Positions 9,554-32,737 of a DNA stretch of 35,464 nucleotides are shown piece after piece (positions within the stretch are counted from its first letter, which is position 1; every line of letters begins with the position of its first letter). The DNA comes from Desulfuromonas sp. (GTDB lineage: Bacteria > Desulfobacterota > Desulfuromonadia > Desulfuromonadales > Desulfuromonadaceae): NCBI GenBank assembly GCA_002869685.1, contig PKUE01000184.1:1-35464 (forward strand). The letters run 5' to 3'. The notes beneath the pieces were generated by a model. That model had not been told where the DNA came from. It was given only the letters and a program-made list of their open reading frames with translations, and searched no databases. Both the position numbers and the translations under genes were made by a program.

Positions 9554-11062
9554 ATGACCAAAAAACTGGTCATCAACACCACCTCGCGCGAAACCCGCGT
9601 TGCCCTGCAGGAGAACGGCCATATTGCCGAGCTCTATATCGAACGCTGCTGTGAACGGGGAATTGTCGGCAATATCTACAAAGGCAAGGTGATCCGGGTT
9701 TTACCGGGCATGCAGGCCGCCTTCGTCGATATCGGCCTGGAAAAAGCCGGTTTCCTGTACGTGGCAGATGTGATCGACGAGATGGATGCCGTGGTCGATT
9801 ATGTCGATGGGCGCAGCTCCAGCGCGGACCCCGGCGATGAAAACATCGAGGAAAAACCGCTGCCCCCCATCGAAGACCTGTTACAGGAAGGTCAGGAGAT
9901 TCTCGCCCAGATCGCCAAAGAACCCCTCGGCACCAAAGGCGCGCGGATTACCTCACACATCTCGCTGCCGGGACGCCATCTGGTTTATATGCCGACCATC
10001 GATCATATCGGCATCTCGCGTCGCATTGAAAATGAAGAGGAAAAGGAACGGCTACGGATGACCGTTGAAGCGATCCGTCCTCCCGGCACCGGCTTCATCG
10101 TCCGCACCGCCGCCGAAGGCAAAAGCGAAGAGGACCTGCGGGCCGACATGCTCTACTTGTCGGAATTGTGGAAGGATATCGACGCCCGGCAGAATGAAGC
10201 CACGCCCCCCTGCCTGATCCACTCCGATCTCGATGTGACCAGCAAGGTCTTGCGCGATATCCTCACTGAGGACATTCGCCACATCGTTGTCGACTCGCAG
10301 AGCGAGTATAATAAGATCGTCCAGTTTCTCGGCACCTACATGCCGAAGCAGGAATACACTATTGAACTGCACGACAAGGATGAGCCACTGTTCGACGCCT
10401 ACGGTCTGGAAGTGGAGATCGCCCGCGCTCTGGGGCGCAAAGTCTGGCTGAAAAGTGGTGGCTACATCATCATTGAGCAAACCGAGGCGTTAACCGCCGT
10501 GGATGTCAACACCGGTCGTTTCGTCGGCAAGCGCAACCTTGAGGACACCATCCTCAAGACCAACCTTGAGGCCGTGCGCGAGGTTGCCTACCAGCTGCGC
10601 TTGCGCAACATTGGCGGCCTGATCATCATCGACTTCATCGATATGGAGAAAGAAGCGCACCGCGAACAGGTGCACAGCGCTCTGGAAGAGGCGTTGAAAA
10701 ACGACAAGAGCAAAACCAACATCCTGAAAATCTCCGAACTCGGCCTGGTCGAGATGACCCGCAAACGGGTCCGAGAAAGCATCGGGCGCACGCTGTGTGA
10801 ACCGTGCCCCTACTGCGAGGGAACCGGCTACATCAAGAGCCGCACCACCATGGTGTTCGAGATTTTCCGCAAACTCAAACGGGAGATGCGCGACCTGCCC
10901 GGTTACCGCATCAATCTGCAGGTGCATCCCGATGTGGCCGCCCTGCTTTATGACGAAGAGAGTGGCGTGATTGACGAGTTGGAAAAGCACCACGAAAAGC
11001 AGATCACCATTATTGCCCGGCCCAATTTCCATATCGAGCAATTTGAGATCGGCGCAGGCTAG
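9554..11062 (+). CDS. rng: Ribonuclease G
   Basis: A 502-residue endoribonuclease of the RNase E/G family that processes the 16S rRNA 5' end and degrades mRNA. It starts MTKKLVINTTSRETRVAL with AAAGGAG 7 bases upstream. An S1-like domain covers about 38-130 (GNIYKGKVIRVLPGMQAAFVDIG motif region). The magnesium-binding aspartates lie in TAVDVNTG (about 316) and IIIDFIDM (about 359). The zinc-link motif CEPCPYC is at about 416-422. It lacks the long C-terminal degradosome scaffold of RNase E, so RNase G is the better name. It sits 62 bp after the radical SAM gene and 14 bp before the sigma-54 activator gene. Confidence 0.95.
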   Translation: MTKKLVINTTSRETRVALQENGHIAELYIERCCERGIVGNIYKGKVIRVLPGMQAAFVDIGLEKAGFLYVADVIDEMDAVVDYVDGRSSSADPGDENIEEKPLPPIEDLLQEGQEILAQIAKEPLGTKGARITSHISLPGRHLVYMPTIDHIGISRRIENEEEKERLRMTVEAIRPPGTGFIVRTAAEGKSEEDLRADMLYLSELWKDIDARQNEATPPCLIHSDLDVTSKVLRDILTEDIRHIVVDSQSEYNKIVQFLGTYMPKQEYTIELHDKDEPLFDAYGLEVEIARALGRKVWLKSGGYIIIEQTEALTAVDVNTGRFVGKRNLEDTILKTNLEAVREVAYQLRLRNIGGLIIIDFIDMEKEAHREQVHSALEEALKNDKSKTNILKISELGLVEMTRKRVRESIGRTLCEPCPYCEGTGYIKSRTTMVFEIFRKLKREMRDLPGYRINLQVHPDVAALLYDEESGVIDELEKHHEKQITIIARPNFHIEQFEIGAG

Positions 11063-11076
11063 ATGGGGGAGTCAGC

Positions 11077-12459
11077 ATGGCCGGTGACAGCGACACTACT
11101 CTGACCACATCGACAGATGCGATCCTCGAAAGCATCAGCGACGGCGTCTTCACCGTCGATGACCAGTGGCGGATCACCTCGTTCAACCGCGCCGCCGAAG
11201 AGATCACCGGAACCTCGCGTCAACAGGCCATCGGCCAGCTGTGCTCCGAAGTGTTCCGCTCCAGCATGTGTGAAAACCACTGCGCCCTGCGTCAGACCCT
11301 GGCCGACGGCAAACCGATCATCAACCGCACCGGCTATATGATCAATGCCTCCGGCCAGCGCATCCCCATCAGCATCTCCACGGCCGTACTGCGCGACCAT
11401 CAGGGGCGCATCATCGGCGGTGCCGAAACCTTCCGCGATCTCAGCGAAGTGGAAGCCCTGCGCAAACAACTCAGCGGCCAACGCCAGCTCGGCGATCTGG
11501 TCAGCCATAGTCCGGCCATGCACGACATCTTTCAACTGATCACGGCGGTCGCTGCCAGCAGCAGCACCGTCTTGATCCAGGGGGAAACCGGCACCGGCAA
11601 AGAGCTGGTCGCCCGCGCCATCCACAGCCTCAGCGACCGCAGCAATCAGCCCTTCGTTGCCCTTAATTGCGGCGCCCTGCCCGACAATCTGCTCGAATCG
11701 GAACTGTTCGGCCATAAAAAAGGGGCGTTCACCGGCGCCATCGCCGACAAACCCGGTCGTTTTTCCCTGGCCGGTCGAGGCACCCTGTTTCTCGACGAGA
11801 TCGGTGAAATCAGTCCAGCCCTGCAGGTGCGTTTACTGCGCGTTTTGCAGGAACATCAGTTTGAACCCCTCGGCGCCCGCCATAGTGAACCGTGTCGGGC
11901 GCGCATTCTTGCCGCCACCAACCGCCATCTCGACCAGCTGGTAAAAGACGGCTCTTTTCGTCAGGATCTGTTTTACCGCATCCAGGTGGTACAGATCGAC
12001 CTGCCACCCCTGCGCCAGCGCATGGAAGACCTGCCGTTGTTGGTGGAACATTTCATCCTGCGCTTTAACCAGCTGCAACACAAAACCATCACCGCCGTGA
12101 CGCCAAACGCGCTGGCGGCACTCCTCGCCCATGACTGGCCGGGCAACGTGCGCGAATTGGAAAACGTCATGGAACGCGCTTTTGTCCTGTGCCAGCGCAA
12201 TGAAATCGACCTGGAGCATCTGCCCGCGACATTTCAGCGACAAAGTGAACAAGGCCCTACCCAGGCCATGGCTGCCAGCCGTCAGCAGCATGAGCGCCAG
12301 GTGATTATCGCCGCCCTCAAGCGCAATCATGGCAATCGTGCTGCCACCGCCCGCCAACTCAACATCCACAAAGCCACCCTTTACCGCAAGATGGCCCGAC
12401 TCAACATCACGCTGCCCAAGCGCGATGGCCGCCAGACACCGTCGCACAACGACGACTGA
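11077..12459 (+). CDS. PAS-domain sigma-54-dependent activator (NtrC family)
   Basis: A 460-residue enhancer-binding protein. It has an N-terminal PAS domain (about 12-125) containing a C-x3-C pair in [14 protein letters not shown] that could sense redox state or metal. The AAA+ domain (about 145-385) has Walker A GETGTGKE (about 168), the sigma-54 contact loop GAFTGA (about 216) and Walker [10 protein letters not shown] Fis-type helix-turn-helix lies near 410-445 ([20 protein letters not shown]). There is no receiver domain, so the signal is probably bound directly by the PAS domain. GGGGGAG precedes the ATG. It lies directly upstream of an operon with a near-perfect -24/-12 promoter and is its likely regulator, as the Desulfovibrio orp activator is for the orp genes (inference). 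Confidence 0.93.
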
Positions 12460-12576
12460 CCTCACCGCTACCGTCGCAGAACAGCAACCAAGCGCAACTC
12501 TGCCAACCTCCGACCTGCCGCGAATTTCCTTTTAATTTTAAACTGTTACAAACATAATTACATCACCATCCACCCT

Positions 12577-12592
12577 TGGTATCACCCTTGCT
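12577..12592 (+). promoter_or_regulatory. Sigma-54 (-24/-12) promoter of the ORP-like operon
   Basis: TTGG (GG at 12578-12579) is followed after exactly 10 bases by GC (12590-12591) in TTGCT, a close match to the TTGGCAC-N-TTGCT consensus. Transcription should start near 12603, about 37 bases before the first gene, whose ribosome site GGGAGG lies at about 12627-12632. The AT-rich stretch 12523-12565 upstream could hold activator sites, but I see no clear dyad. Confidence 0.88.
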
Positions 12593-12639
12593 CTATCTCC
12601 CCACAGACAAACGAACCCAACAATCCGGGAGGCTTATAG

Positions 12640-13032
12640 GTGGCAACGGCAGGTTTCACCATTTGGAATGAACGTATTGCGCCGGTGTTTGATGTGGCCG
12701 GGCAACTGCTCATTGTCGATGAACGCCCCGACGTCGCCTGGCAGCGCCTGACACTTCCAGAAGGATCGGCACTCGACAAGCTGTGGTTTCTGCGCCAACA
12801 ACAGGTAACGATACTGGTGTGCGGCGCCATGACCTGCAGCAGCTATTACGCCGCATGCGGATATGGCATGACCGTCTACCGTTTTGTCGCCGGCCCCTGT
12901 GACCAGGTGATTGACGGTTGGCGCCACCAGCTACCTCTGGAATCCCACTTCCCCATGCCGGGATGCGGCCGGGGCAAAGGTCACGGCCAGGGAAGACAAC
13001 GACGCAACCACCCCTCCCATTCACCCCGATGA
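12640..13032 (+). CDS. NifX/MTH1175-like protein with basic Gly/His/Arg tail
   Basis: A 130-residue protein starting at GTG 12640, with GGGAGG 7 bases upstream. The body resembles the dinitrogenase iron-molybdenum cofactor family (NifX/NifB C-terminal/MTH1175): FTIWNERIAPVFDVAGQLLIVD is the typical first strand-helix unit, and VTILVCGAMTC the second half. Members bind Fe-S or Mo-Fe-S clusters. C-terminal PMPGCGRGKGHGQGRQ gives a flexible Gly/His/Arg-rich tail. Cysteines in CGAMTCSS, ACGYG, GPCD and PGCG could bind metal. It is the first gene of the sigma-54 operon. It lies among other members of the same family, so it may serve the ORP-like complex; the cluster carried is unknown. Confidence 0.75.
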   Translation: MATAGFTIWNERIAPVFDVAGQLLIVDERPDVAWQRLTLPEGSALDKLWFLRQQQVTILVCGAMTCSSYYAACGYGMTVYRFVAGPCDQVIDGWRHQLPLESHFPMPGCGRGKGHGQGRQRRNHPSHSPR

Positions 13033-13047
13033 GACAAGGAGTTGAAC

Positions 13048-13299
13048 ATGCCAAATCAAAATGGAACAGGCCCCTTCGGTGGAGGCCCCCGCTCAGGACG
13101 TGGCGCTGGTCGCTGCGGACGTAGCAACCGCGCAATGTCTGGCCGCCAGAACGGTGCCCAGCAAGAGATGATGCAACAGGGCTTTCGCCGCCTCGACGCC
13201 AGCGAAGACAACTCGCTGCAGCAGCAGATGGCCGACCTCAAGCAACAACTGGCCACCATGAGTCAAACACTGCAGGAACTCAGCCGTCAACGCGACTAA
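13048..13299 (+). CDS. DUF5320-type small Gly-rich protein with coiled coil
   Basis: An 83-residue protein. ATG 13048 has AAGGA 7 bases upstream; a TTG two codons earlier is a less likely start. The N-terminus MPNQNGTGPFGGGPRSGRGAGRCG matches the pattern seen in DUF5320 proteins (M-P-x-x-DGTGP-x-GxGPxTGRGxGxC). The C-terminal half (about 45-83) is a glutamine-rich coiled coil (LQQQMADLKQQLATMSQTLQEL). Such proteins are often encoded beside NifX-like and MinD-type genes in anaerobes; their function is unknown. It lies 15 bp after the first gene of the operon, so it is co-transcribed. A small assembly or partner protein is plausible. Confidence 0.8.
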   Translation: MPNQNGTGPFGGGPRSGRGAGRCGRSNRAMSGRQNGAQQEMMQQGFRRLDASEDNSLQQQMADLKQQLATMSQTLQELSRQRD

Positions 13300-13324
13300 G
13301 TTCCCCACCTCTTCACCACTAAGG

Positions 13325-13355
13325 CACCGTGCCGTTCATCGTGAACGGCACGGTG
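13325..13355 (+). promoter_or_regulatory. Perfect 14-bp hairpin in the operon leader of the third gene
   Basis: CACCGTGCCGTTCA and TGAACGGCACGGTG form a perfect stem with a 3-base loop. It lies between the DUF5320 gene and the next NifX-like gene, ends 13 bases before the ATG at 13369, and is not followed by a T-run. An mRNA-stabilising or translation-controlling structure, or a protein-binding dyad, fits better than a terminator. Confidence 0.7.
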
Positions 13356-13368
13356 AAAATGGATACTT

Positions 13369-13737
13369 ATGAAAATAGCCTTCAGTACCAATGGCACCAA
13401 TCGTGAAGATCTTGTCGACAGCCGCTTCGGACGAGCCGAGCGCTTTGTCATCATCGATTCCATCAGCGACGAATTACAGGTGGTCGACAACATCCAGAAC
13501 CGCCAATCGAGCCAGGGCGCCGGAATCCAAAGTGCCACGACGCTGATCAATCAGGGTGTCGGAGCCGTGGTTACCGGACAATGCGGCCCCAAAGCCTTCA
13601 CCCTGCTGGAGCGTTCAGGAATCCGTGTTTACCCGTGCCCCGCCATCACCATCGCCGAAGCGTTCCGGCAGGTACAGCAGAACAAACTCAGCGCAACCAC
13701 ATCTGCCACGGTTGAAGGACATTGGGGCGAGGTATGA
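13369..13737 (+). CDS. NifX/MTH1175-like protein
   Basis: A 122-residue protein of the dinitrogenase iron-molybdenum cofactor family: MKIAFSTNG, DSRFGRAERFVIID and GAVVTGQCGPKAFTLLERSGIRVY follow the family order. It resembles the MTH1175-like proteins next to the ParA/MinD-type ferredoxin ATPases in many anaerobes. The single GQCGP cysteine and one later (PCPAI) could be cluster contacts. Only a weak ribosome site (ATGGA) precedes the ATG, and a strong hairpin lies just upstream, so translation may be controlled. The stop overlaps the next gene by 4 bp (ATGA). Its partner ATPases follow directly. Confidence 0.83.
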   Translation: MKIAFSTNGTNREDLVDSRFGRAERFVIIDSISDELQVVDNIQNRQSSQGAGIQSATTLINQGVGAVVTGQCGPKAFTLLERSGIRVYPCPAITIAEAFRQVQQNKLSATTSATVEGHWGEV

Positions 13738-14582
13738 AACTGGCCATCGCTTCCGGGAAAGGGGGGACAGGGAAGACCACGCTGACGGTCGCTCTGGCCC
13801 AAGCAGCCCAGGCTCCCGTGCAACTGCTCGATTGTGACGTGGAGGAGCCCAACAGCCATCTGTTCTTCACCAAAGGCGACTCAAAACGCGACGTGGTAAC
13901 GGTCGCCGTTCCCCATATAGATCCGCAACGCTGCACACATTGCGGTCTGTGTGGCGACTTCTGTGCCTACAACGCTCTGGCCTGTCTGCCGACGGAAACC
14001 ATTCTGTTTGAGGGCTTATGCCACAGCTGCGGTGGCTGCATGCGACTGTGCCCCCATCAGGCGATCAGCGAACGCCAACAGCGGATCGGCTACATTGACC
14101 AGTGGCGCCACGGACAGATTGACCTGTTCAGTGGCGTCCTCGATGTGGGCCAAGCGATGTCTCCCCCGTTGATCCGTGCCGTCAAACGCCATCAACAGGC
14201 AGACAAGCTAATTCTGCTCGACTGTCCGCCGGGAACCTCGTGTCCTCTGACGACCACAATCCACGATGCGGATGTGGTAATTCTGGTCACTGAGCCCACC
14301 CCGTTCGGCCTGCACGATTTACAGATTGCCGTCGAGACCGTCCGGCAACTGAACCGCCCCGTGGCTGTCATCATCAACCGCAGCGACCTGGGGGACCAGA
14401 GTATCCACGACTATTGCCGCAGCAAAAAAATCCCCATCCTGCTGCAGATTCCGTTTGAAAAGCGGATTGCCGTGGCCTATTCCCGTGGCGACGGCCTGCT
14501 CGACGCCCTGCCGGGATTACAACCGCAGCTGGCACTGGTCCTAAATCAGGCCAGAAAACTTTATCGGGAGAACCTGACGTGA
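13734..14582 (+). CDS. MinD/ParA-type ATPase with inserted 2x4Fe-4S ferredoxin domain (first)
   Basis: A 282-residue P-loop ATPase. The deviant Walker A SGKGGTGKTTL is at about 8-18, DCDVEEPNSH follows at about 36-45, and the C-terminal half carries the remaining ATPase motifs (LLDCPPGTSCP, VTEPTPFGLHDL). Inserted at about 60-110 are two ferredoxin motifs (CTHCGLCGDFCAYNALAC and CHSCGGCMRLCPHQAI), each expected to hold a 4Fe-4S cluster. This architecture occurs in the DVU2103/DVU2104-type proteins of Desulfovibrio orp clusters. ATG 13734 overlaps the previous stop (ATGA), supporting coupled translation. It probably acts as a pair with the following paralogue. Cluster delivery or septum/cell-positioning roles are suggested by the family, not proven here. 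Confidence 0.88.
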   Translation: MKLAIASGKGGTGKTTLTVALAQAAQAPVQLLDCDVEEPNSHLFFTKGDSKRDVVTVAVPHIDPQRCTHCGLCGDFCAYNALACLPTETILFEGLCHSCGGCMRLCPHQAISERQQRIGYIDQWRHGQIDLFSGVLDVGQAMSPPLIRAVKRHQQADKLILLDCPPGTSCPLTTTIHDADVVILVTEPTPFGLHDLQIAVETVRQLNRPVAVIINRSDLGDQSIHDYCRSKKIPILLQIPFEKRIAVAYSRGDGLLDALPGLQPQLALVLNQARKLYRENLT

Positions 14583-15451
14583 AAGAACTGATTGTCATCA
14601 GTGGCAAAGGGGGAACGGGGAAAACCAGCCTGACCGCCTGCCTGGCAACCCTGGCAGAGCAGTGCGTCATCGCCGATTGCGATGTCGATGCCGCCAATCT
14701 TCATTTGCTGCTTTCGCCCCGTGTCCACCACCGCACACCGTTCGTCAGTGGTGAAATGGCCGTGATCGATGAAACCCGTTGTAACCAGTGCGGCCACTGC
14801 CAACAGTTGTGCCGCTTTGAAGGGATCAGCCCGACACCGCCCTATACCATTCTGCCTTCCGGGTGTGAAGGGTGCCGGGTCTGCGCCCATTTCTGCCCGC
14901 AACAGGCCATCTCCATGGTGCCACGCCAATGTGGCGAGTGGTACCGTTCGGTGAGTTCAGCCGGTCCGATGATCCATGCCCGCATCAACGTCGGTGCCGA
15001 AAACTCCGGGAAATTGGTCAGCCTGTTCCGGCAGCAGGCCCGGCAACTAGCCGAAGAACAGCAATCTCCCTGGCTGCTGGTGGATGGTCCTCCGGGTCTC
15101 GGTTGTCCGGTAATCGCTTCGGTCACCGGTGCGGACGCCGTTTTGATCGTCACTGAACCAACCCTGGCCGGACAACACGACATGGTACGGATCATTGACT
15201 TACTGGAGCACTTTTCCATGACCGGTTACATCTGCATCAATCGCTGGGATATCAACCCGGAGATGACGCGCACCATCCGCCAGATTGCCGAGCAACGTGG
15301 TGTGAGCTGCGTCGGTCTGATTCCGTTTGACCGCCAGGTGGTTTCTGCCCAGCTCAAGGCACGGCCGGTCATCGACCAGCCAGACAGCATTGCCGCCATG
15401 GCCATTAAAGATTTATGGGACAACGTGCACGCCATCTTGTCCACCCCGTAA
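14579..15451 (+). CDS. MinD/ParA-type ATPase with inserted 2x4Fe-4S ferredoxin domain (second)
   Basis: A 290-residue paralogue of the preceding gene, starting at GTG 14579 in a GTGA overlap with its stop. It has the same order: Walker A SGKGGTGKTSL (about 8-18), DCDVDAANLHLL (about 36-47), ferredoxin motifs CNQCGHCQQLC and CEGCRVCAHFCPQQAI (about 64-110), then DGPPGLGCP and VTEPTLAGQHDM. The first ferredoxin motif reads LCRFEGI rather than LCPxxAI, so the usual proline after the fourth cysteine is replaced by arginine; the cysteines are kept. The paired, overlapping genes suggest a heterodimer. Other details are as for the first ATPase. Confidence 0.88.
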   Translation: MKELIVISGKGGTGKTSLTACLATLAEQCVIADCDVDAANLHLLLSPRVHHRTPFVSGEMAVIDETRCNQCGHCQQLCRFEGISPTPPYTILPSGCEGCRVCAHFCPQQAISMVPRQCGEWYRSVSSAGPMIHARINVGAENSGKLVSLFRQQARQLAEEQQSPWLLVDGPPGLGCPVIASVTGADAVLIVTEPTLAGQHDMVRIIDLLEHFSMTGYICINRWDINPEMTRTIRQIAEQRGVSCVGLIPFDRQVVSAQLKARPVIDQPDSIAAMAIKDLWDNVHAILSTP

Positions 15452-15497
15452 ACCACAACCCGTATTTCGTTATTTGAACACTTCACAGGAGTTTGAC

Positions 15498-15833
15498 ATG
15501 AGAATTGCCATCCCTACATCCCAAGGGAAATTAACCCCCCATTTTGGCCATTGCGAACAATTTGCCCTGATCGACGTCACGGACAACACCATCGACGGGC
15601 AACCGAACTACATTGATCCACCACCCCACGAACCGGGTCTGCTACCCCGCTGGCTGGCCGAGCAACAGGTCAACCTGATCATCGCCGGCGGCATGGGGCA
15701 ACGGGCCAAGCAACTGTTTGACAGCCACGGGATTGAGGTGATCACCGGTGCTCCGGCAGAGCCGCCACAACTGCTGGTGGAACGCCACCTCAGCAACACA
15801 CTGACCACCGGGATCAACCTCTGTGACCATTGA
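15498..15833 (+). CDS. NifX/MTH1175-like protein, candidate orange-protein homologue
   Basis: A 111-residue protein starting MRIAIPTSQGKLTPHFGHCEQFALIDV, the typical beginning of MTH1175-like and orange-protein family members, with HFGHC where family proteins often have HFGRC. IIAGGMGQRAKQLFDSHGIEV and the C-terminal GINLCDH follow family order. AGGAG lies 8 bases before the ATG. D. gigas orange protein carries a Mo-Cu-sulfide cluster; whether this one does cannot be seen. It lies 46 bp after the second ATPase and overlaps the thioesterase by 11 bp. Of the three NifX-like proteins in this operon it looks closest to the plain single-domain type. Confidence 0.83.
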   Translation: MRIAIPTSQGKLTPHFGHCEQFALIDVTDNTIDGQPNYIDPPPHEPGLLPRWLAEQQVNLIIAGGMGQRAKQLFDSHGIEVITGAPAEPPQLLVERHLSNTLTTGINLCDH

Positions 15834-16281
15834 TCTGCGACAAACCACCGGCGAAGGACACGGTCACCAGCATTGCATCATGTGTGGTGACCACAATCCC
15901 CTGTCGCTGAAACTGTCCTTCGATAAAAATCCTCAGGGTGGTGTCTGCACCACCTTTCAGGGTTCGCCCTGGCTGCAGGGCTACCAGAGCCTGCTTCATG
16001 GCGGCATTATCTGCTCGCTACTCGACAGCGCCATGACCCATTGCCTGTTTGCCGAACAGATCAAGGCTGTGACCGGAGAGTTGAAGGTACGTTTTTTACA
16101 TCCGGTTCCCGCCCAGGCCAGCCTGGCATTGTCGGCCAGAATCACCGACAGCCTGCCGCCAGTGTATCGGGTGGAAGCTCTGCTGCACCACGGCACCCGG
16201 CTCATGGCCCGGGCCGACGCCAAATTTATGCAATTCGCCACCTTGTCGCCAACATCGATGGAAAAGGAAAAATCTCCTTGA
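15823..16281 (+). CDS. Hot-dog fold thioesterase (PaaI-like)
   Basis: A 152-residue protein starting at GTG 15823, overlapping the previous gene by 11 bp. The N-terminal CIMCGDHNP resembles the CxxCGxxNP signature of many PaaI-like thioesterases, and LLHGGIICSLLDSAM is the hot-dog central helix with the catalytic region; VTGELKVRFLHPVP follows. It likely hydrolyses acyl-CoA thioesters in the cytoplasm. The substrate is unknown. It is the last gene of the sigma-54 operon and its stop codon is embedded in the rplU promoter. A link to cluster metabolism is not obvious, so it may be an adjacent passenger. Confidence 0.83.
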   Translation: MTIDLRQTTGEGHGHQHCIMCGDHNPLSLKLSFDKNPQGGVCTTFQGSPWLQGYQSLLHGGIICSLLDSAMTHCLFAEQIKAVTGELKVRFLHPVPAQASLALSARITDSLPPVYRVEALLHHGTRLMARADAKFMQFATLSPTSMEKEKSP

Positions 16282-16306
16282 CACGTATCACGTCAGCGGA
16301 TAAAGT
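16278..16306 (+). promoter_or_regulatory. Sigma-70 promoter of the rplU-rpmA operon
   Basis: TTGACA (16278-16283) and TAAAGT (16301-16306) are separated by the optimal 17 bases. The -35 element is perfect and overlaps the TGA stop of the thioesterase gene. A start near 16313 leaves a leader of about 43 bases before rplU. This lets the ribosomal protein genes be transcribed independently of the sigma-54 operon upstream. Confidence 0.8.
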
Positions 16307-16355
16307 GCGCCGTTACTGAAACATCAAAAATACGTTGAAAAGCGAGGTGAAGTAC

Positions 16356-27611: not shown

Positions 27612-27628
27612 AGGCATATTGTTTGCAT
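27612..27628 (+). promoter_or_regulatory. Sigma-54-type (-24/-12) promoter of the glutamate synthase operon
   Basis: AGGCA (GG at 27613-27614) and TTTGCAT (GC at 27625-27626) are spaced by exactly 10 bases, matching GG-N10-GC with conserved GGCA and TTGCA. Transcription should start near 27638, before the ribosome site at about 27661-27666 of the gene at 27676. The upstream stretch 27473-27610 is AT-rich and holds no gene; activator sites there were not recognised. Confidence 0.72.
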
Positions 27629-27675
27629 ATAAGTCGTGTCGGTCGAAAAATTTCTTTGATTGGAGGACAAGGCCA

Positions 27676-28782
27676 ATGTGTCGAATTGGAGCCATCAAAA
27701 GTAAAAACTATACTCACCCGAGCAAAGCGTTACAGCTGATGCAATCCCAGCAGAAGGGACATGACAACTCGGGATTCGCCATGGTCATGCAAGACCTTGG
27801 CGGCATTTTTGAAGGGTATAAACACCTGCCCACTTTATCCATGGCCTGCACAGATGAAGGCTTGAATCTGGCAGAAAACATTCTGCATGAAGCGGGTTTC
27901 CGCCGCGTTCTGCAATGGGTTCCGGATACGTTCCCCAACGACGATCTGGACATCAACGCCATGCCCAACTACGTGTTTGAAACCTTCAGCTATCCGAAGA
28001 GCTACAAACACGCTACCGAAGAAGAAAAGGAAGAGCTGCTGCTCGATATGCGCCTTAAAATGCGTGCAGCACTGGAGCCAAACGAGCAAGGCTTTGTCTA
28101 CTCTTTCTGGCCCGATGTCGTCACCCTGAAAGAGATCGGTGACCCGCGCGATATCGGCACATTCTTCAACCTGTGGCAGGAAGACGAAAACTTCACCGCC
28201 AAGGTGATTACAGCCCAGTGTCGTCAGAACACCAACTACGATATTGTCCGCTATGCCGCGCATCCCTTCTTCCTGCAGGGCTACACCGGACTGGCGAATG
28301 GCGAAAACACCTTCTACCAGAAGAATAAAGAGATACAAAGCAAACTGCATCGTGGCTACATTGGCTTCGAATCGGATTCTCAGTGCTTCCTCTATACACT
28401 GCACTACATCCATCGTCAGCTAAAATGGCCGCTGCAGTACTTCAAACACGTCATTACGCCACTGCCGTTTGATGAACTGCAGAGCCGTGACGATGCCGAC
28501 CAGTTGCGCAGCATCCGTCAATCACTGTCACACCTGGAGATCAACGGCCCCAACACCATCATCGGTGTTCTGCCCGACAACACGCTGTTCACCTGCTGCG
28601 ATGCAAAGAAACTGCGCCCGGTCGTCATCGGCCGAACCGAGGATACCATTGCGATTGCATCAGAAGTGTGCGGCATCAACGAGATCCTGCCGGATCGGCA
28701 GTGGTCCACGGATATTTACCCCAACGAACGCGAAATCGTCGTGATCAATGATGAGCTGGAGGTTGCACGATGGAAACAGTAA
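27676..28782 (+). CDS. Glutamate synthase, separate glutamine amidotransferase (class II) subunit
   Basis: A 368-residue protein starting MCRIGAIKSKNYTHPSKALQLM; Cys2 becomes the N-terminal nucleophile of class II (Ntn) amidotransferases after Met removal. Conserved QQKGHDNSGFAM and the later FESDSQCFLYTLHY/EIDGPN-type region support this. It releases ammonia from glutamine for the synthase subunit. ATG 27676 is fixed by the catalytic Cys2 and by GGAGG about 9 bases upstream; earlier in-frame ATGs bury the cysteine. It overlaps the next gene by 13 bp. In most bacteria this domain is fused into one large GltB chain; here it is separate, as in archaeal-type enzymes. Confidence 0.9.
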   Translation: MCRIGAIKSKNYTHPSKALQLMQSQQKGHDNSGFAMVMQDLGGIFEGYKHLPTLSMACTDEGLNLAENILHEAGFRRVLQWVPDTFPNDDLDINAMPNYVFETFSYPKSYKHATEEEKEELLLDMRLKMRAALEPNEQGFVYSFWPDVVTLKEIGDPRDIGTFFNLWQEDENFTAKVITAQCRQNTNYDIVRYAAHPFFLQGYTGLANGENTFYQKNKEIQSKLHRGYIGFESDSQCFLYTLHYIHRQLKWPLQYFKHVITPLPFDELQSRDDADQLRSIRQSLSHLEINGPNTIIGVLPDNTLFTCCDAKKLRPVVIGRTEDTIAIASEVCGINEILPDRQWSTDIYPNEREIVVINDELEVARWKQ

Positions 28783-30413
28783 AAATACAGGACATCACCC
28801 CCAATGACCTGCCCTGGAAGCTGCGCTACGACGCCAGCCGCTGCACCCTGTGCGGTTCCTGCGTCGCCGCATGTTCTTTCCGCGCCATCGAGCCTAAAAT
28901 CGAGCGCCGTCGCATGGTGTTCTCCGAAGGAGATCTACCCGACCCTCGCGCCCGTTTTTCTGCGGTCCCTGTGATCCAGCAGGTCAACTCACTGAAAAAC
29001 TACTGCCGCGGTTGCGGCATCTGCGAAAAGGTCTGCCCCAACGATGCCATCGCACCGGTGCGCAACCCCGACACACGCCATCCGATTGTCACCCGCTGTT
29101 CAGCAGGGGATTCAATCAAACGCGGTGGCCGCAAAAACTTGACTGGCAGCACCCGCACTCTCGACCAGATCCGCGTTGGCCGTATTTCCCAGATGACGGA
29201 CCCGAGCCTCGACGCTCAGCGCCATACGTTTGACATGCTGGCGCCGTTTGGTCGGATCCTGCCTGCGGACGAACTGTCCATGACTCTCGACAGCAACGGC
29301 AAGCTGATCAGCAACGGCCAGACGCCGCCTGTCAACTGGATCTACCCCGTCATCATCGGCGACATGTCGATCGGCGCCCTGTCCTGGCGGATGTGGGAAG
29401 GTGTGGCTATGGCCGTCGCCTACCTCAACGAGGAATGTGGCCTGCCGGTGCGCATGAGCTCCGGTGAAGGTGGCGTCCCCATGCGCCTGCTCAAGAGCCG
29501 CTACCTCAAATACCTGATCCTGCAAATCGCTTCCGGTCACTTTGGCTGGAACCGAATCGTCAAGGCCATGCCGGACATGATCGAAGACCCGGCGGGCGTT
29601 CTGATCAAAATCGGTCAGGGTGCCAAGCCCGGTGACGGCGGCCTGCTCCAGGCTCAGAAAGTTGCCGAGCACATCATGGCGATCCGCGGTGTCCCTAAAG
29701 CCGACCTGCTCAGCCCCCCGAACCACCAGGGACTGTACTCCATCGAGGAGAGCGTTCAGAAAATGTTCCTCTCTTTCAATGCGGCATTCAAATTCCGTGT
29801 TCCCGTGGCCATCAAGGTTGCGGCATCGGCGACCAGCGTCTCGGTGTTCAACAACCTGGTGCGCGACCCCTACAACATTGTCGGCGGATTCTTCCTCGAC
29901 GGCATCGACGGCGGTACCGCAGCAGCCCACGAGGTTTCACTCGATCACACCGGCCATCCGATCGTCAGCAAACTGCGTGACTGCTATCTCGCCGCAGTAA
30001 CCCAGGGACGCCAGGGTCAGATTCCGCTGTGGGCCGGCGGCGGTCTGGGCAAAACCGGCGACCTTGCTGCGGACGCTTTTAAAATGATGTGCCTGGGCGC
30101 CAACGGCGTCTTCACCGGCAAACTGATTTTGCAAATGGCTGGCTGCGTCGGCAACGACCTCGGTCGCTGCAATGCCTGCAACACCGGCCTGTGCCCGGCA
30201 GGAATCACCTCACAGATTCCCGCCCTGGCCCATCGTCTGGACCCGGAAAAAGTTGCCGAAAACATCGTCAACTACTTCCTGGCCATGGACCAGGAGCTCA
30301 AAAAGCTCATGGCCCCCATCGGCAACTCGTCGCTGCCCATCGGCCGTTCGGATGCGCTGGTCAGCGTGGACAAATCTGTCGCCGACCGTCTGCAAATTCA
30401 GTACGTGTGTTAA
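28770..30413 (+). CDS. Glutamate synthase, FMN-binding synthase subunit with N-terminal ferredoxin domain
   Basis: A 547-residue protein. Two ferredoxin motifs at about 25-42 (CTLCGSCVAACSFRAIEP) and 77-95 (CRGCGICEKVCPNDAIAP) should hold 4Fe-4S clusters. The glutamate synthase barrel (about 180-530) has SSGEGGVPMRL, IKIGQGAKPGDGGLLQAQKV, HQGLYSIEE, DGIDGGTAAAHEVSLDH and WAGGGLGKTGDLAADAFKMM. The cluster motif CNACNTGLCPAGITSQ near 470 corresponds to the 3Fe-4S site of GltB. It makes glutamate from 2-oxoglutarate and the ammonia passed from the amidotransferase subunit, with electrons through the ferredoxins. It starts inside the end of the previous gene and is followed 11 bp later by the third subunit. 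Confidence 0.93.
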   Translation: METVKIQDITPNDLPWKLRYDASRCTLCGSCVAACSFRAIEPKIERRRMVFSEGDLPDPRARFSAVPVIQQVNSLKNYCRGCGICEKVCPNDAIAPVRNPDTRHPIVTRCSAGDSIKRGGRKNLTGSTRTLDQIRVGRISQMTDPSLDAQRHTFDMLAPFGRILPADELSMTLDSNGKLISNGQTPPVNWIYPVIIGDMSIGALSWRMWEGVAMAVAYLNEECGLPVRMSSGEGGVPMRLLKSRYLKYLILQIASGHFGWNRIVKAMPDMIEDPAGVLIKIGQGAKPGDGGLLQAQKVAEHIMAIRGVPKADLLSPPNHQGLYSIEESVQKMFLSFNAAFKFRVPVAIKVAASATSVSVFNNLVRDPYNIVGGFFLDGIDGGTAAAHEVSLDHTGHPIVSKLRDCYLAAVTQGRQGQIPLWAGGGLGKTGDLAADAFKMMCLGANGVFTGKLILQMAGCVGNDLGRCNACNTGLCPAGITSQIPALAHRLDPEKVAENIVNYFLAMDQELKKLMAPIGNSSLPIGRSDALVSVDKSVADRLQIQYVC

Positions 30414-30424
30414 GGAGGATCTCA

Positions 30425-32737
30425 ATGGCTGCAAAAATCACTGGATTCGACGCCAACAACCGACGTCTCTCCACGCAAATATTACTGCAAAAAATTTATT
30501 CGGCTCTCGAAGAAGGGGAAACTCAGTTCGAAGTTCTCTCCTCCGGCCATCACAATATTGGCGGTCCTCTGTGGACGGAAGATGGCACACCGCTCAAGTT
30601 TCGGGTTAAAAACCCAGGACAACGCGTTGGTTCATTCGGCCTCGAAGGGACCGATATCATCGTTGACGGTTCTGCTCCGGCGGATGCCGGCTGGCTCAAT
30701 GCCGGTGCAACCCTGACCATCCTTGGCGACAGCGGCGACACCACCGCGCACTGTGCTGCCAGCGGCAAAATTTATGTCGCAGGCCAGGTTGGCACCCGCA
30801 GCGGTTCCTTAATGAAGCACGACCCGGCATTCGACGCGCCCGAACTGTGGGTTCTGAAGAAAACCGGCTCATTCTCATTTGAGTTCATGGGCGGCGGCAT
30901 CGGCGTCATCTGCGGGATCGACTGCGAAGAGGAAGAGTCCATCCTCGGCGATCGCGGTTGCGCCGGCATGGTTGGTGGCTCTCTGTACATCCGTGGTCCT
31001 GTCACCGGACTGTCCAACGATGTCTGGCTGCTTGACCTTGATGAAGCGGACCAGACATTCCTCGGCACCGGCTTGCCGGAGTTTCTCAATCGTATCGAGC
31101 GTCCGGAACTGCTCGACACCCTGAGCGACATGAGCCAATGGAAGAAGATCGTCGCCAAAACCTACGAAGAGCGCAACGCCAAAGGACGCATCTCCATGCA
31201 CGAATTCCGCCTGGGCAAATGGGTGGAAGGGGGCATCTTCGGCGATATCGTCAACGACGACTACAGCCATGTCGCTGGACTGGTCAACGCCGGTGATGAT
31301 CGCCTCAAAGTTCCCCATTGGATGGAAAAGCGTTACGCAGCGCCCTGTCAGTCTTCCTGCCCGTCGTTCATTCCGACCCAGGACCGACTTAAGCTGCTGC
31401 GCGAGGGCAAAGAGAAAGAAGCGATGGAACTGGTATTGCGCTACTCGCCATTTCCGGCCAGTGTCTGCGGCCAGGTCTGCCCGAACCTGTGCATGGACGC
31501 CTGCAGTCGTCGCTTCCTCGATTCACCCGTCTCCATGAAGCAACTTGGCGCTCTGTCCGTCGGCACCCCGGCCCCCGAATGCGCTCCCGACACCGGCAAA
31601 AAAGTTGCCGTCATCGGTGGCGGCCCCGGCGGCCTGTCGGCAGCTTGGCAACTGCGCCTCAAAGGGCACGACGTCACGGTTTATGAAGCGGATCAACGCC
31701 TCGGCGGGAAGCTCTATCAGGCCATCCCGACGGAACGTCTTCCCGAAGAGATCCTCCAGGGAGAGATCGACCGCCTGCTCAGCAGCGGCATCAAAGCCAA
31801 AACCGGTACCAAGGTTGACGCTCCGCTATTTGACCAGATCCGCCAGGAACATGATGCCGTGGTCATCGCCAGCGGCGCCCACAATCCGGTGGTTATCCCC
31901 TTCCCCGGCCATGAATTGATGGTCAAGGGGCTGGATTTCCTGAAAAAGATCAATGCCGGTGAAAAACCCGCCATTGGCAAAAAAGTTGTCGTCATCGGCG
32001 CCGGCAATGCCGGCATGGACGTCGTTCTTGGCGCGTACGCCATGGGCGCAGAGAAAGTAGTCGCTATCGACGTTCAACGCCCAGCGGCATATCAGAAAGA
32101 GATCGATCACGTCAAAGCACTGGGTGGCGAAATTCGCTGGCCGATCTTCACCGATCACATCAGTGAAAAAGGATTGCACACCAAGGATGGCGAACTGATC
32201 GAAGCAGACGATGTCATCATCTCCATCGGTGAGCGTCCCGACCTGTCCTACCTCCCCAGCGAGTGGCTGACAGATCGTGGCATGATGGATGTCAACGGCT
32301 GCTGGCAGGTCAAAGGCCAGGAAAACATCTTTGCCATTGGCGATACCACCCGCCCTGGTCTTTTGACCAACGCTATCGGTCACGGCCACGAGGCTGCCGA
32401 CTACTGCAGCGACTGGCTCAACGGCCTTGAAGTGGTCGAGCGAAAAAAACTCGAAGTCATTCCGCAACACCGCCTAAGCAAAGAGCTGTTCCGTCCGCGC
32501 AATCGTGGTCGCCTCAACATCACCGATGGTCGCGAGGAAACCACCCGTTGTATCTCCTGCGGAACCTGTCGTGACTGCTCCATGTGCCTTGAAGCGTGCC
32601 CGGAAGCGGCCATCCGTCGCATTGAAGGCCCCAACGGCTCCTTCGAGTACGTCTCAGACGATCATGTCTGCATCGGTTGCGGCATCTGCTCCGGCATCTG
32701 TCCATGCGGCATTTGGACGATGGAGCAGGTGGTCTAA
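30425..32737 (+). CDS. Glutamate synthase GXGXG domain fused to NADPH-oxidoreductase (GltD-like) and ferredoxin
   Basis: A 770-residue fusion. Residues about 1-250 are the GXGXG beta-helix domain (VGSFGLEGTDIIVDGSAPADAGWLNAGATLTILGDSGDTTAHC, DRGCAGMVGGSLYIRG). About 300-670 is the GltD-like FAD/NAD(P) reductase with the CQSSCPSFIPTQD and VCGQVCPNLCMDACSR cluster cysteines, the first dinucleotide motif GGGPGGLSAA and the second GAGNAGMDV. Two ferredoxin motifs at the C-terminus are CISCGTCRDCSMCLEACPEAAI and CIGCGICSGICPCGIW. ATG 30425 has AAGGAGG upstream. It completes the synthase and supplies electrons. A strong terminator follows. Confidence 0.92.
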   Translation: MAAKITGFDANNRRLSTQILLQKIYSALEEGETQFEVLSSGHHNIGGPLWTEDGTPLKFRVKNPGQRVGSFGLEGTDIIVDGSAPADAGWLNAGATLTILGDSGDTTAHCAASGKIYVAGQVGTRSGSLMKHDPAFDAPELWVLKKTGSFSFEFMGGGIGVICGIDCEEEESILGDRGCAGMVGGSLYIRGPVTGLSNDVWLLDLDEADQTFLGTGLPEFLNRIERPELLDTLSDMSQWKKIVAKTYEERNAKGRISMHEFRLGKWVEGGIFGDIVNDDYSHVAGLVNAGDDRLKVPHWMEKRYAAPCQSSCPSFIPTQDRLKLLREGKEKEAMELVLRYSPFPASVCGQVCPNLCMDACSRRFLDSPVSMKQLGALSVGTPAPECAPDTGKKVAVIGGGPGGLSAAWQLRLKGHDVTVYEADQRLGGKLYQAIPTERLPEEILQGEIDRLLSSGIKAKTGTKVDAPLFDQIRQEHDAVVIASGAHNPVVIPFPGHELMVKGLDFLKKINAGEKPAIGKKVVVIGAGNAGMDVVLGAYAMGAEKVVAIDVQRPAAYQKEIDHVKALGGEIRWPIFTDHISEKGLHTKDGELIEADDVIISIGERPDLSYLPSEWLTDRGMMDVNGCWQVKGQENIFAIGDTTRPGLLTNAIGHGHEAADYCSDWLNGLEVVERKKLEVIPQHRLSKELFRPRNRGRLNITDGREETTRCISCGTCRDCSMCLEACPEAAIRRIEGPNGSFEYVSDDHVCIGCGICSGICPCGIWTMEQVV

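Follow-up and report, generated by a model that had tools for sequence, protein, structure and literature searches.

An operon of the orange-protein type with three NifX-like proteins and paired ferredoxin-MinD ATPases in a Desulfuromonas contig

Introduction

What is made or carried by the products of an operon in which a sigma-54 activator, three small NifX-like proteins (X1, X2 and X3), a DUF5320 protein, two ferredoxin-MinD ATPases (MinD1 and MinD2) and a hot-dog thioesterase stand together is the question raised by contig PKUE01000184.1 of Desulfuromonas sp. All coordinates refer to the window, i.e., the whole stretch of 35,464 nucleotides that was analysed, and all genes of the locus lie on its plus strand. 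Each gene named by a sequence-only reading of this DNA was found at 11077-16281, and its comparison with the orange-protein (ORP) clusters of Desulfovibrio was borne out by a common clade of X2 and the D. gigas ORP (support 98), by the paired ATPases adjoining X2, and by the sigma-54 activator with its promoter. Membership in the ORP systems is well supported. The locus is probably a system of ATP-driven assembly and carriage of iron–sulfur (Fe-S) or thiometallate clusters under a redox-sensing activator; the cofactor identity, the direction of cluster transfer, the sensed signal and the physiological target are inferred.

Results and Discussion

Orange-protein homologue X2 and gene order

Two sets of loci were used for comparison: 13 fetched loci of the same family (relatives; gene presence counted from the annotation table) and a wider set, the best 80 of 537 confirmed matches of a scan seeded with a 2WFB fragment and eight family X2 sequences. 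Record titles of the wider set are mostly Desulfo- and delta-proteobacterial, most records are metagenome-assembled, and the gene counts, made with family hidden Markov models (HMMs), are lower bounds, many loci being cut by contig ends.

X2 (13369..13737, +) was assigned as an ORP/Orp8-type homologue from its PDB match and its place in a tree; PF02579 was matched with E = 2.1e-21, and the best PDB match is 2WFB, the D. gigas ORP, at 66.7 bits (MTH1175: 54 bits). The tree, rooted at its midpoint, comprised 110 of 214 sequences, with the X2 and X3 sets of the wider loci thinned out and each domain trimmed to its HMM envelope. Family X2s, wider-locus X2s and 2WFB form one clade (ultrafast bootstrap 98) with the nifX product of the own genome outside; MTH1175 and 1RDU are placed directly outside this clade, and the own NifX together with two paralogues from contig C77 (88) is the next group outside (71). 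X1 and X3 are found on another side of the tree. Family and wider-locus X1s group (83; 90 with the lone C122 protein described below), except for the mixed frame L118, which scores for both X1 and X2 and is the one of 18 wider-locus frames labelled X1 that was placed in the X2 clade. Family X3 (99) and the NifX gene that follows MinD2 in the wider loci (98) form separate groups. At position Z of the GxZGPKAF loop, cysteine is present in 13/13 family X2s (GQCGPKAF in the window) and valine in 2WFB; of 83 wider-locus X2 frames, 70 have Val, 6 have Cys and 7 gave no pattern match.

The same tree bears on the idea of a nitrogenase FeMo-cofactor accessory operon, which the NifX-fold proteins and the nif genes of the genome would suit, and for which it may be said that X2 is not far removed from the own nifX and the C77 pair, these being the group immediately beyond the ORP/MTH1175/1RDU clade. 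The nif cluster at G000:C19 (nifX; nifH, nifD and nifK named by eye) has, however, its own nifX, whose product shares no group with X1 or X3; the X2 clade leaves it out and joins X2 to ORPs, and the loci found are of ORP type with mostly Desulfo- and delta-proteobacterial titles. The tree outcome that the sequence-only reading had named as its refutation, NifX-like proteins placed among nitrogenase accessory proteins, was not obtained. The nitrogenase reading, unsupported by the tree and by the separate nif cluster, is regarded as highly improbable. Elsewhere in the own genome, L007 (G000:C77, 8467-9760) has a pair of NifX-like genes and, after them, one for a small, Cys-rich helix-turn-helix (HTH) protein that presumably resembles DUF134; in the tree the NifX-like pair groups with nifX and not with the proteins of the window.

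The order from activator to X3 is preserved in every same-family locus reaching it. MinD1 was detected in 69, MinD2 in 70 and both in 68 of the 80 wider loci, 54 of which show the order X2-MinD1-MinD2-NifX. An activator scoring >500 bits was found in 15/80, X1 in 20/80 and DUF5320 in 19/80. The different arrangement which the sequence-only reading had seen is thus true in part: the core order is the usual one and the block is conserved in the family, while the locus does stand apart in having no MrpORP fusion, in forming one collinear operon, and in the thioesterase and the cysteine of X2.

ATPases MinD1 and MinD2

MinD1 (13734..14582, +; CbiA 1.1e-16 and Fer4 by Pfam) is a deviant Walker A ATPase of the Orp3/Orp4 type with two 4Fe-4S motifs, and MinD2 (14579..15451, +; CbiA 1.4e-12 and Fer4) is a second ATPase with two such motifs. 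Both features, the deviant Walker A and the two 4Fe-4S motifs, were present in 13/13 full-length family MinD1 and 13/13 MinD2 sequences and, in the full-length frames of the wider loci, in 68/68 and 68/68, respectively. The frames of X2 and MinD1 share 4 bases (ATGA), those of MinD1 and MinD2 4 bases (GTGA), and those of X3 and the thioesterase 11 bases; translational coupling is likely because of these overlaps. MinD1 is present in 14/14 same-family genomes, own included, patchy in the wider class (24/98 genomes at E ≤ 1e-45) and common in the phylum sample (76/118 genomes at E ≤ 1e-30, a threshold that may admit MinD2: the only match in G146 is MinD2-like, of 133 bits, and that in G121 is partial, of 162 bits).

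Such ATPases belong to the MinD/ParA class, and the pair might be a spatial regulator of septum or chromosome positioning, a role proposed for the D. vulgaris ORP complex in the available parts of PMC3897727 and PMC4672049; the available text of PMC6345978 attributes a C-terminal amphipathic helix to Orp3/Orp4 and describes MrpORP as polar. The hydrophobic moment of the MinD1 C-terminus ranks 1st of 272 windows (0.75) and that of MinD2 18th of 280, on a scale where the E. coli MinD reference itself reaches only 0.27. No match to MinC (PF03775) was obtained in the own genome (94.8% complete), with the control search positive in 6/14 named genomes; MinE was not searched for. Against a positioning role, MinC is rare in the phylum sample with or without MinD1, so the ORP system is no general Min substitute, and much of the remaining operon consists of cluster-chemistry proteins. 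Of the 118 genomes, 6 have MinC; MinD1 was found in 4 of these (G050, G101, G119 and G130; G027 and G086 are not among the matches) and in 72 of the 112 genomes without MinC, leaving 40/112 without both (same settings and sample size for both searches; only listed rows are comparable). This co-occurrence gives no sign that ORP replaces Min, and does not address positioning directly. The septum-positioning system considered by the sequence-only reading has gained no support from the lack of MinC in the genome or from the phylum sample, and is judged improbable. In the available parts of two further reports, DVU2103 co-elutes with DnaK (PMC3125180) and DVU2109 is lowered upon DsrC perturbation (PMC6470260); neither adds anything on the role here.

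Activator and promoter

The activator (11077..12459, +) is of the one-component OrpR type with PAS, AAA+ and Fis HTH parts (Pfam: Sigma54_activat 2.4e-68, PAS and Fis HTH). Its loop motif reads GAFTGA; GAFTDA was found in 11/15 wider-locus activators and is given for DVU2106 in the available part of PMC4641369. The PAS cysteines C56-x8-C65-x3-C69 were seen in 26/26 aligned sequences that hold the region; the alignment consisted of 27 sequences (the window, the C122 paralogue, 9 family loci, 15 wider loci picked by a score >500 bits, and L042, which ends before the region). Among wider-locus activator frames of 200-500 bits, the motif is present in 5/11 and absent from 6/11, and by eye it is absent from C143 and C39, two other own-genome matches with a PAS region, the inspection leaving aside 21 further own-genome matches. 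The PAS-region model has a mean predicted local distance difference test (pLDDT) value of 83.8, with about 69 for the loop 61-70. OrpR was reportedly described in 2021 as an Fe-S cluster protein; no record among those listed by a literature search deals with OrpR in this meaning.

The strict sigma-54 -24/-12 pattern gave a single match in the window, TGGTATCACCCTTGCT at 12577..12592 (+), between the activator and X1 (0.11 expected; at least one match in 10/100 shuffles), and TGG-N9-TGC occurs at the aligned promoter position in 11/11 family regions, window included, in 8 of them as the TTGC form. An imperfect palindrome, GTCGCA-N4-AGCAAC (12473..12488, +), is a weak candidate for the activator site: the motif has 2 matches in the window versus 0.29 expected, 4/100 shuffles reach 2, and similar elements were seen by eye in the aligned family regions. 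The TTGCA half-site form was found 27 times versus 10 expected (mononucleotide shuffles, 24 regions), and 13 of the 24 regions, including all of L038-L043, are without any.

A second OrpR-type activator of the own genome adjoins a lone His-rich NifX-like protein at L009 (G000:C122, 4461-4847 and 5069-6379, both on the minus strand). It is 45% identical to the activator of the window, has the same PAS cysteines, and no MinD-type gene was seen adjoining the pair. The lone NifX-like protein occurs in 11/14 family genomes and adjoins the activator in 7/8 loci examined, own included. By eye, without chance control, at least one perfect GTTGCA-N(1-2)-TGCAAC palindrome is present in the gap of 7/7 such pairs, and a TTGGCAYTGCTYTTGTA-like promoter in all 5 with the full gap visible.

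X3 and the thioesterase

X3 (15498..15833, +; PF02579, 5.1e-18) is homologous to the C-terminal (Di-Nase) domain of MrpORP and stands by itself. It matches NF041136 (MrpORP) with E = 2.4e-37 over model positions 265-365 and has the motifs HFGHCE, PPPHxPGxxP and CDH, with Thr at the first Cys of CXHFGHCE. The Mrp-Di-Nase fusion itself is absent from the operon, where only the Di-Nase part is present as X3. The best NF041136 match of the own genome, G000:C1, reaches 385 bits (cut-off 450) over positions 2-249 only, without the Di-Nase domain; MrpORP above the curated cut-off was found in 71/395 phylum genomes. According to the available text of PMC6345978, the Di-Nase domain of MrpORP holds a [3Fe-4S] cluster, and MrpORP transfers Fe-S in vitro to the Orp3-Orp4-Orp8 complex.

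The hot-dog thioesterase (15823..16281, +) is of the 4HBT/PaaI type (4HBT 2.2e-6 by Pfam; NCBIfam match below cut-off). It is present in 6/11 relatives' loci extending past X3 and near X3 in 3/80 wider loci. In three distant ORP loci, two of them of the Holophaga type, a hot-dog thioesterase domain also lies 3' of the NifX gene (L144, 11131-12439; L152, 12103-13393; L108, 11024-12400), in L144 as part of a frame that is much extended at its N-terminus; the association is recurrent and unexplained.

X1, DUF5320 and the hairpin

X1 (12640..13032, +) is the divergent member of the three, with a sub-threshold PF02579 match (E = 0.12). With a mean pLDDT of 86.4 (<50 at residues 112-125), an AlphaFold model computed from 16 X1 sequences indicates that X1 has the PF02579/NifX-type fold: all ten Foldseek matches with E ≤ 0.001 are 2YX6 (four chains), 1RDU, 1O13, 9IAN, 1P90, 2WFB and 2QTD, among them NifX (9IAN chain F), NafY (1P90) and ORP (2WFB). 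The count of three NifX-like proteins thus agrees with the sequence-only reading, X2 and X3 by PF02579 and X1 by modelled fold. The alignments and the model show the motifs RIAPVFDVA and CGA, a C-terminal MPGC, and a basic tail where the confidence of the model is low. An extra C-terminal paired-Cys module, rubredoxin- or zinc-ribbon-like by eye, was noted in X1 of L090, L105, L116, L099, L146 and L092.

The DUF5320 protein (13048..13299, +; Pfam 7.3e-9) is Gly/Arg-rich; its frame is open from TTG 13042, and ATG 13048 is probably its start because the DUF5320 proteins of relatives begin with MP in the alignment. A literature search for DUF5320 returned no title on this topic. X1 and DUF5320 recur in the same order in 12/12 relatives' loci that reach them (of the 13 fetched, L047 ends before), so their association goes beyond chance. 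In the family, the net charge is +4 to +9 for the X1 tail (13/13) and +4 to +12 for DUF5320 (13/13), and conserved Cys stand alongside cationic Gly/Arg-rich stretches in both. Either of the two could be the counterpart of Orp5, taken by description as a small [2Fe-2S] protein.

These stretches with their conserved Cys would also suit an IssA-like storage of iron sulfide or thiometallate, in which anionic metal-sulfide polymers would be nucleated by X1 and DUF5320 and drawn upon by the ATPases when Fe-S clusters are assembled; for IssA, itself of the PF02579 type, binding of thioferrate by the cationic Gly-rich tail has been proposed (PMC5524996, available part). The X1 tails are, however, of 20-30 residues as compared with 70 in IssA and by eye have few aromatics, so that X1 lacks the PF02579 domain with a cationic Gly/aromatic tail of ca. 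70 residues characteristic of IssA, and neither sigma-54 control nor paired ATPases are mentioned for IssA in the available text of PMC5524996. Storage of this kind is considered unlikely.

An RNA hairpin with a 14-bp stem (13325..13355, +; z -4.3) lies in the gap between DUF5320 and X2. As a terminator it was rejected: it is without a U tract and not among the terminator-like matches. In 11 measured family gaps (13 loci given; L042 and L048 left out, with no X2 start found; close relatives not independent), perfect stems of 8-15 bp were found, the stem persisting while its sequence varies; against 100 shuffles, 9/11 exceed all, 1 shuffle equals L049 and 12 equal L044, and the fold z is < -2.5 in 9/11. 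In controls, z < -2.5 was obtained for 2/10 activator-X1 gaps, 0/11 X3/thioesterase-rplU gaps and 10/10 rpmA-obgE gaps; since the latter fold strongly, strong stems are not confined to the DUF5320-X2 gap and the control is not clean. The hairpin may be an mRNA-processing or stabilising element that separates X1-DUF5320 from the ATPase half.

Proposed mechanism

In the ORP system favoured here, a one-component activator, whose three PAS cysteines probably bind a redox-sensitive centre, Fe-S or other, would drive the single sigma-54 operon under a suitable anaerobic or redox condition. The ferredoxin-MinD pair (Orp3/Orp4 type) would use ATP to handle electrons and clusters, loading a metal-sulfide cluster onto, or removing it from, three small NifX-fold carriers, namely X2 as ORP, X3 as the MrpORP-C-like and X1 as the MPGC-tailed carrier; anionic thiometallate or iron-sulfide material may be held by the Gly/Arg-rich cationic stretches in X1 and DUF5320.

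Several points weigh against this proposal. Since MrpORP is not encoded in the operon, the step by which the Desulfovibrio complex is matured in vitro either is lacking here or falls to a separate protein. X3 has two cysteines versus three conserved in the MrpORP domain, and the GPKAF loop of X2 is not that of the D. gigas ORP, so that a Mo-Cu cluster, which the Orp8-type ORP is reported to bind as S2MoS2CuS2MoS2 without a covalent link (PMC6345978, available part), cannot be assumed. The equation of X3 with the NifX gene after MinD2 in the wider loci was rejected on the separate tree groups; a shared position need not mean a shared subfamily. The holding role of the cationic tails is suggested from composition alone.

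A more specific version of the proposal is put forward tentatively and looks doubtful as a whole: X2 would carry an Fe-S or thiometallate cluster anchored by cysteine in place of the non-covalent Mo-Cu cluster of D. gigas, MinD1/MinD2 and the free-standing X3 would exchange clusters without MrpORP, the X1/DUF5320 tails would form a scaffold that holds thiometallate, and the paralogous activator would control the lone C122 carrier.

Flanking genes

Upstream of the activator lies rng (9554-11062, +), and the thioesterase is followed in order by rplU, rpmA, obgE, proB and proA (names assigned from translations). In the relatives, rng is 5' of the activator in 9/9 loci reaching it, and rplU is found 3' in 10/11 (exception: L049). 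No plus-strand terminator-like site is among the sites listed for the stretch before rplU (16281-16353), and therefore sigma-54 transcription may extend into the genes for ribosomal proteins. The sigma-70-like match at 16278-16306 is at chance level (2 found, 2.1 expected). Farther along the window, frames at 27619-32737 resemble, by eye over the first 60 residues, a split ferredoxin-containing glutamate synthase.

Comparison with known systems

Orp numbers were assigned by feature, and the D. vulgaris Hildenborough system (DVU2103-DVU2109, activator DVU2106) was compared through the available parts of published descriptions (PMC6345978, PMC3897727, PMC4641369). Shared with it are two MinD-type ATPases with ferredoxin motifs, an ORP-type NifX-fold protein, a sigma-54 activator with a sigma-54 promoter, and a Di-Nase domain of the MrpORP type. 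The present locus is one collinear operon, whereas that of D. vulgaris consists of two divergent operons around the activator; as the core is collinear in the 54 wider loci as well, divergent operons do not define ORP systems. Here X3 stands alone with no Mrp-Di-Nase fusion, in contrast to MrpORP in the D. vulgaris and D. alaskensis clusters; the activator has GAFTGA in place of GAFTDA; and DUF5320 and the thioesterase belong to the operon.

Among single proteins, the D. gigas ORP (2WFB) is the closest solved sequence to X2 and of the same clade, with Val in place of the family Cys. MrpORP (NF041136, Orp9) resembles X3 in its C-terminal domain; X3 is without the Mrp ATPase domain and has one cysteine fewer. 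IssA of Pyrococcus furiosus has in common with X1 the PF02579-type fold, modelled for X1, and a cationic Gly-containing tail, that of X1 being much shorter. NifX and NafY share the modelled fold of X1 (9IAN chain F, 1P90), but the own nifX is in another clade and at a separate locus.

In the publications consulted, a role of ORP is proposed and not proven, and MinD1-type ATPases are widespread (76/118 phylum genomes). Components fused or divergently encoded in Desulfovibrio stand separate here, the ORP loop has Cys in place of Val, and MrpORP is missing from the operon; these are natural contrasts for asking which cofactor is bound, which maturation protein is used, and whether the ATPases act in chemistry or in positioning.

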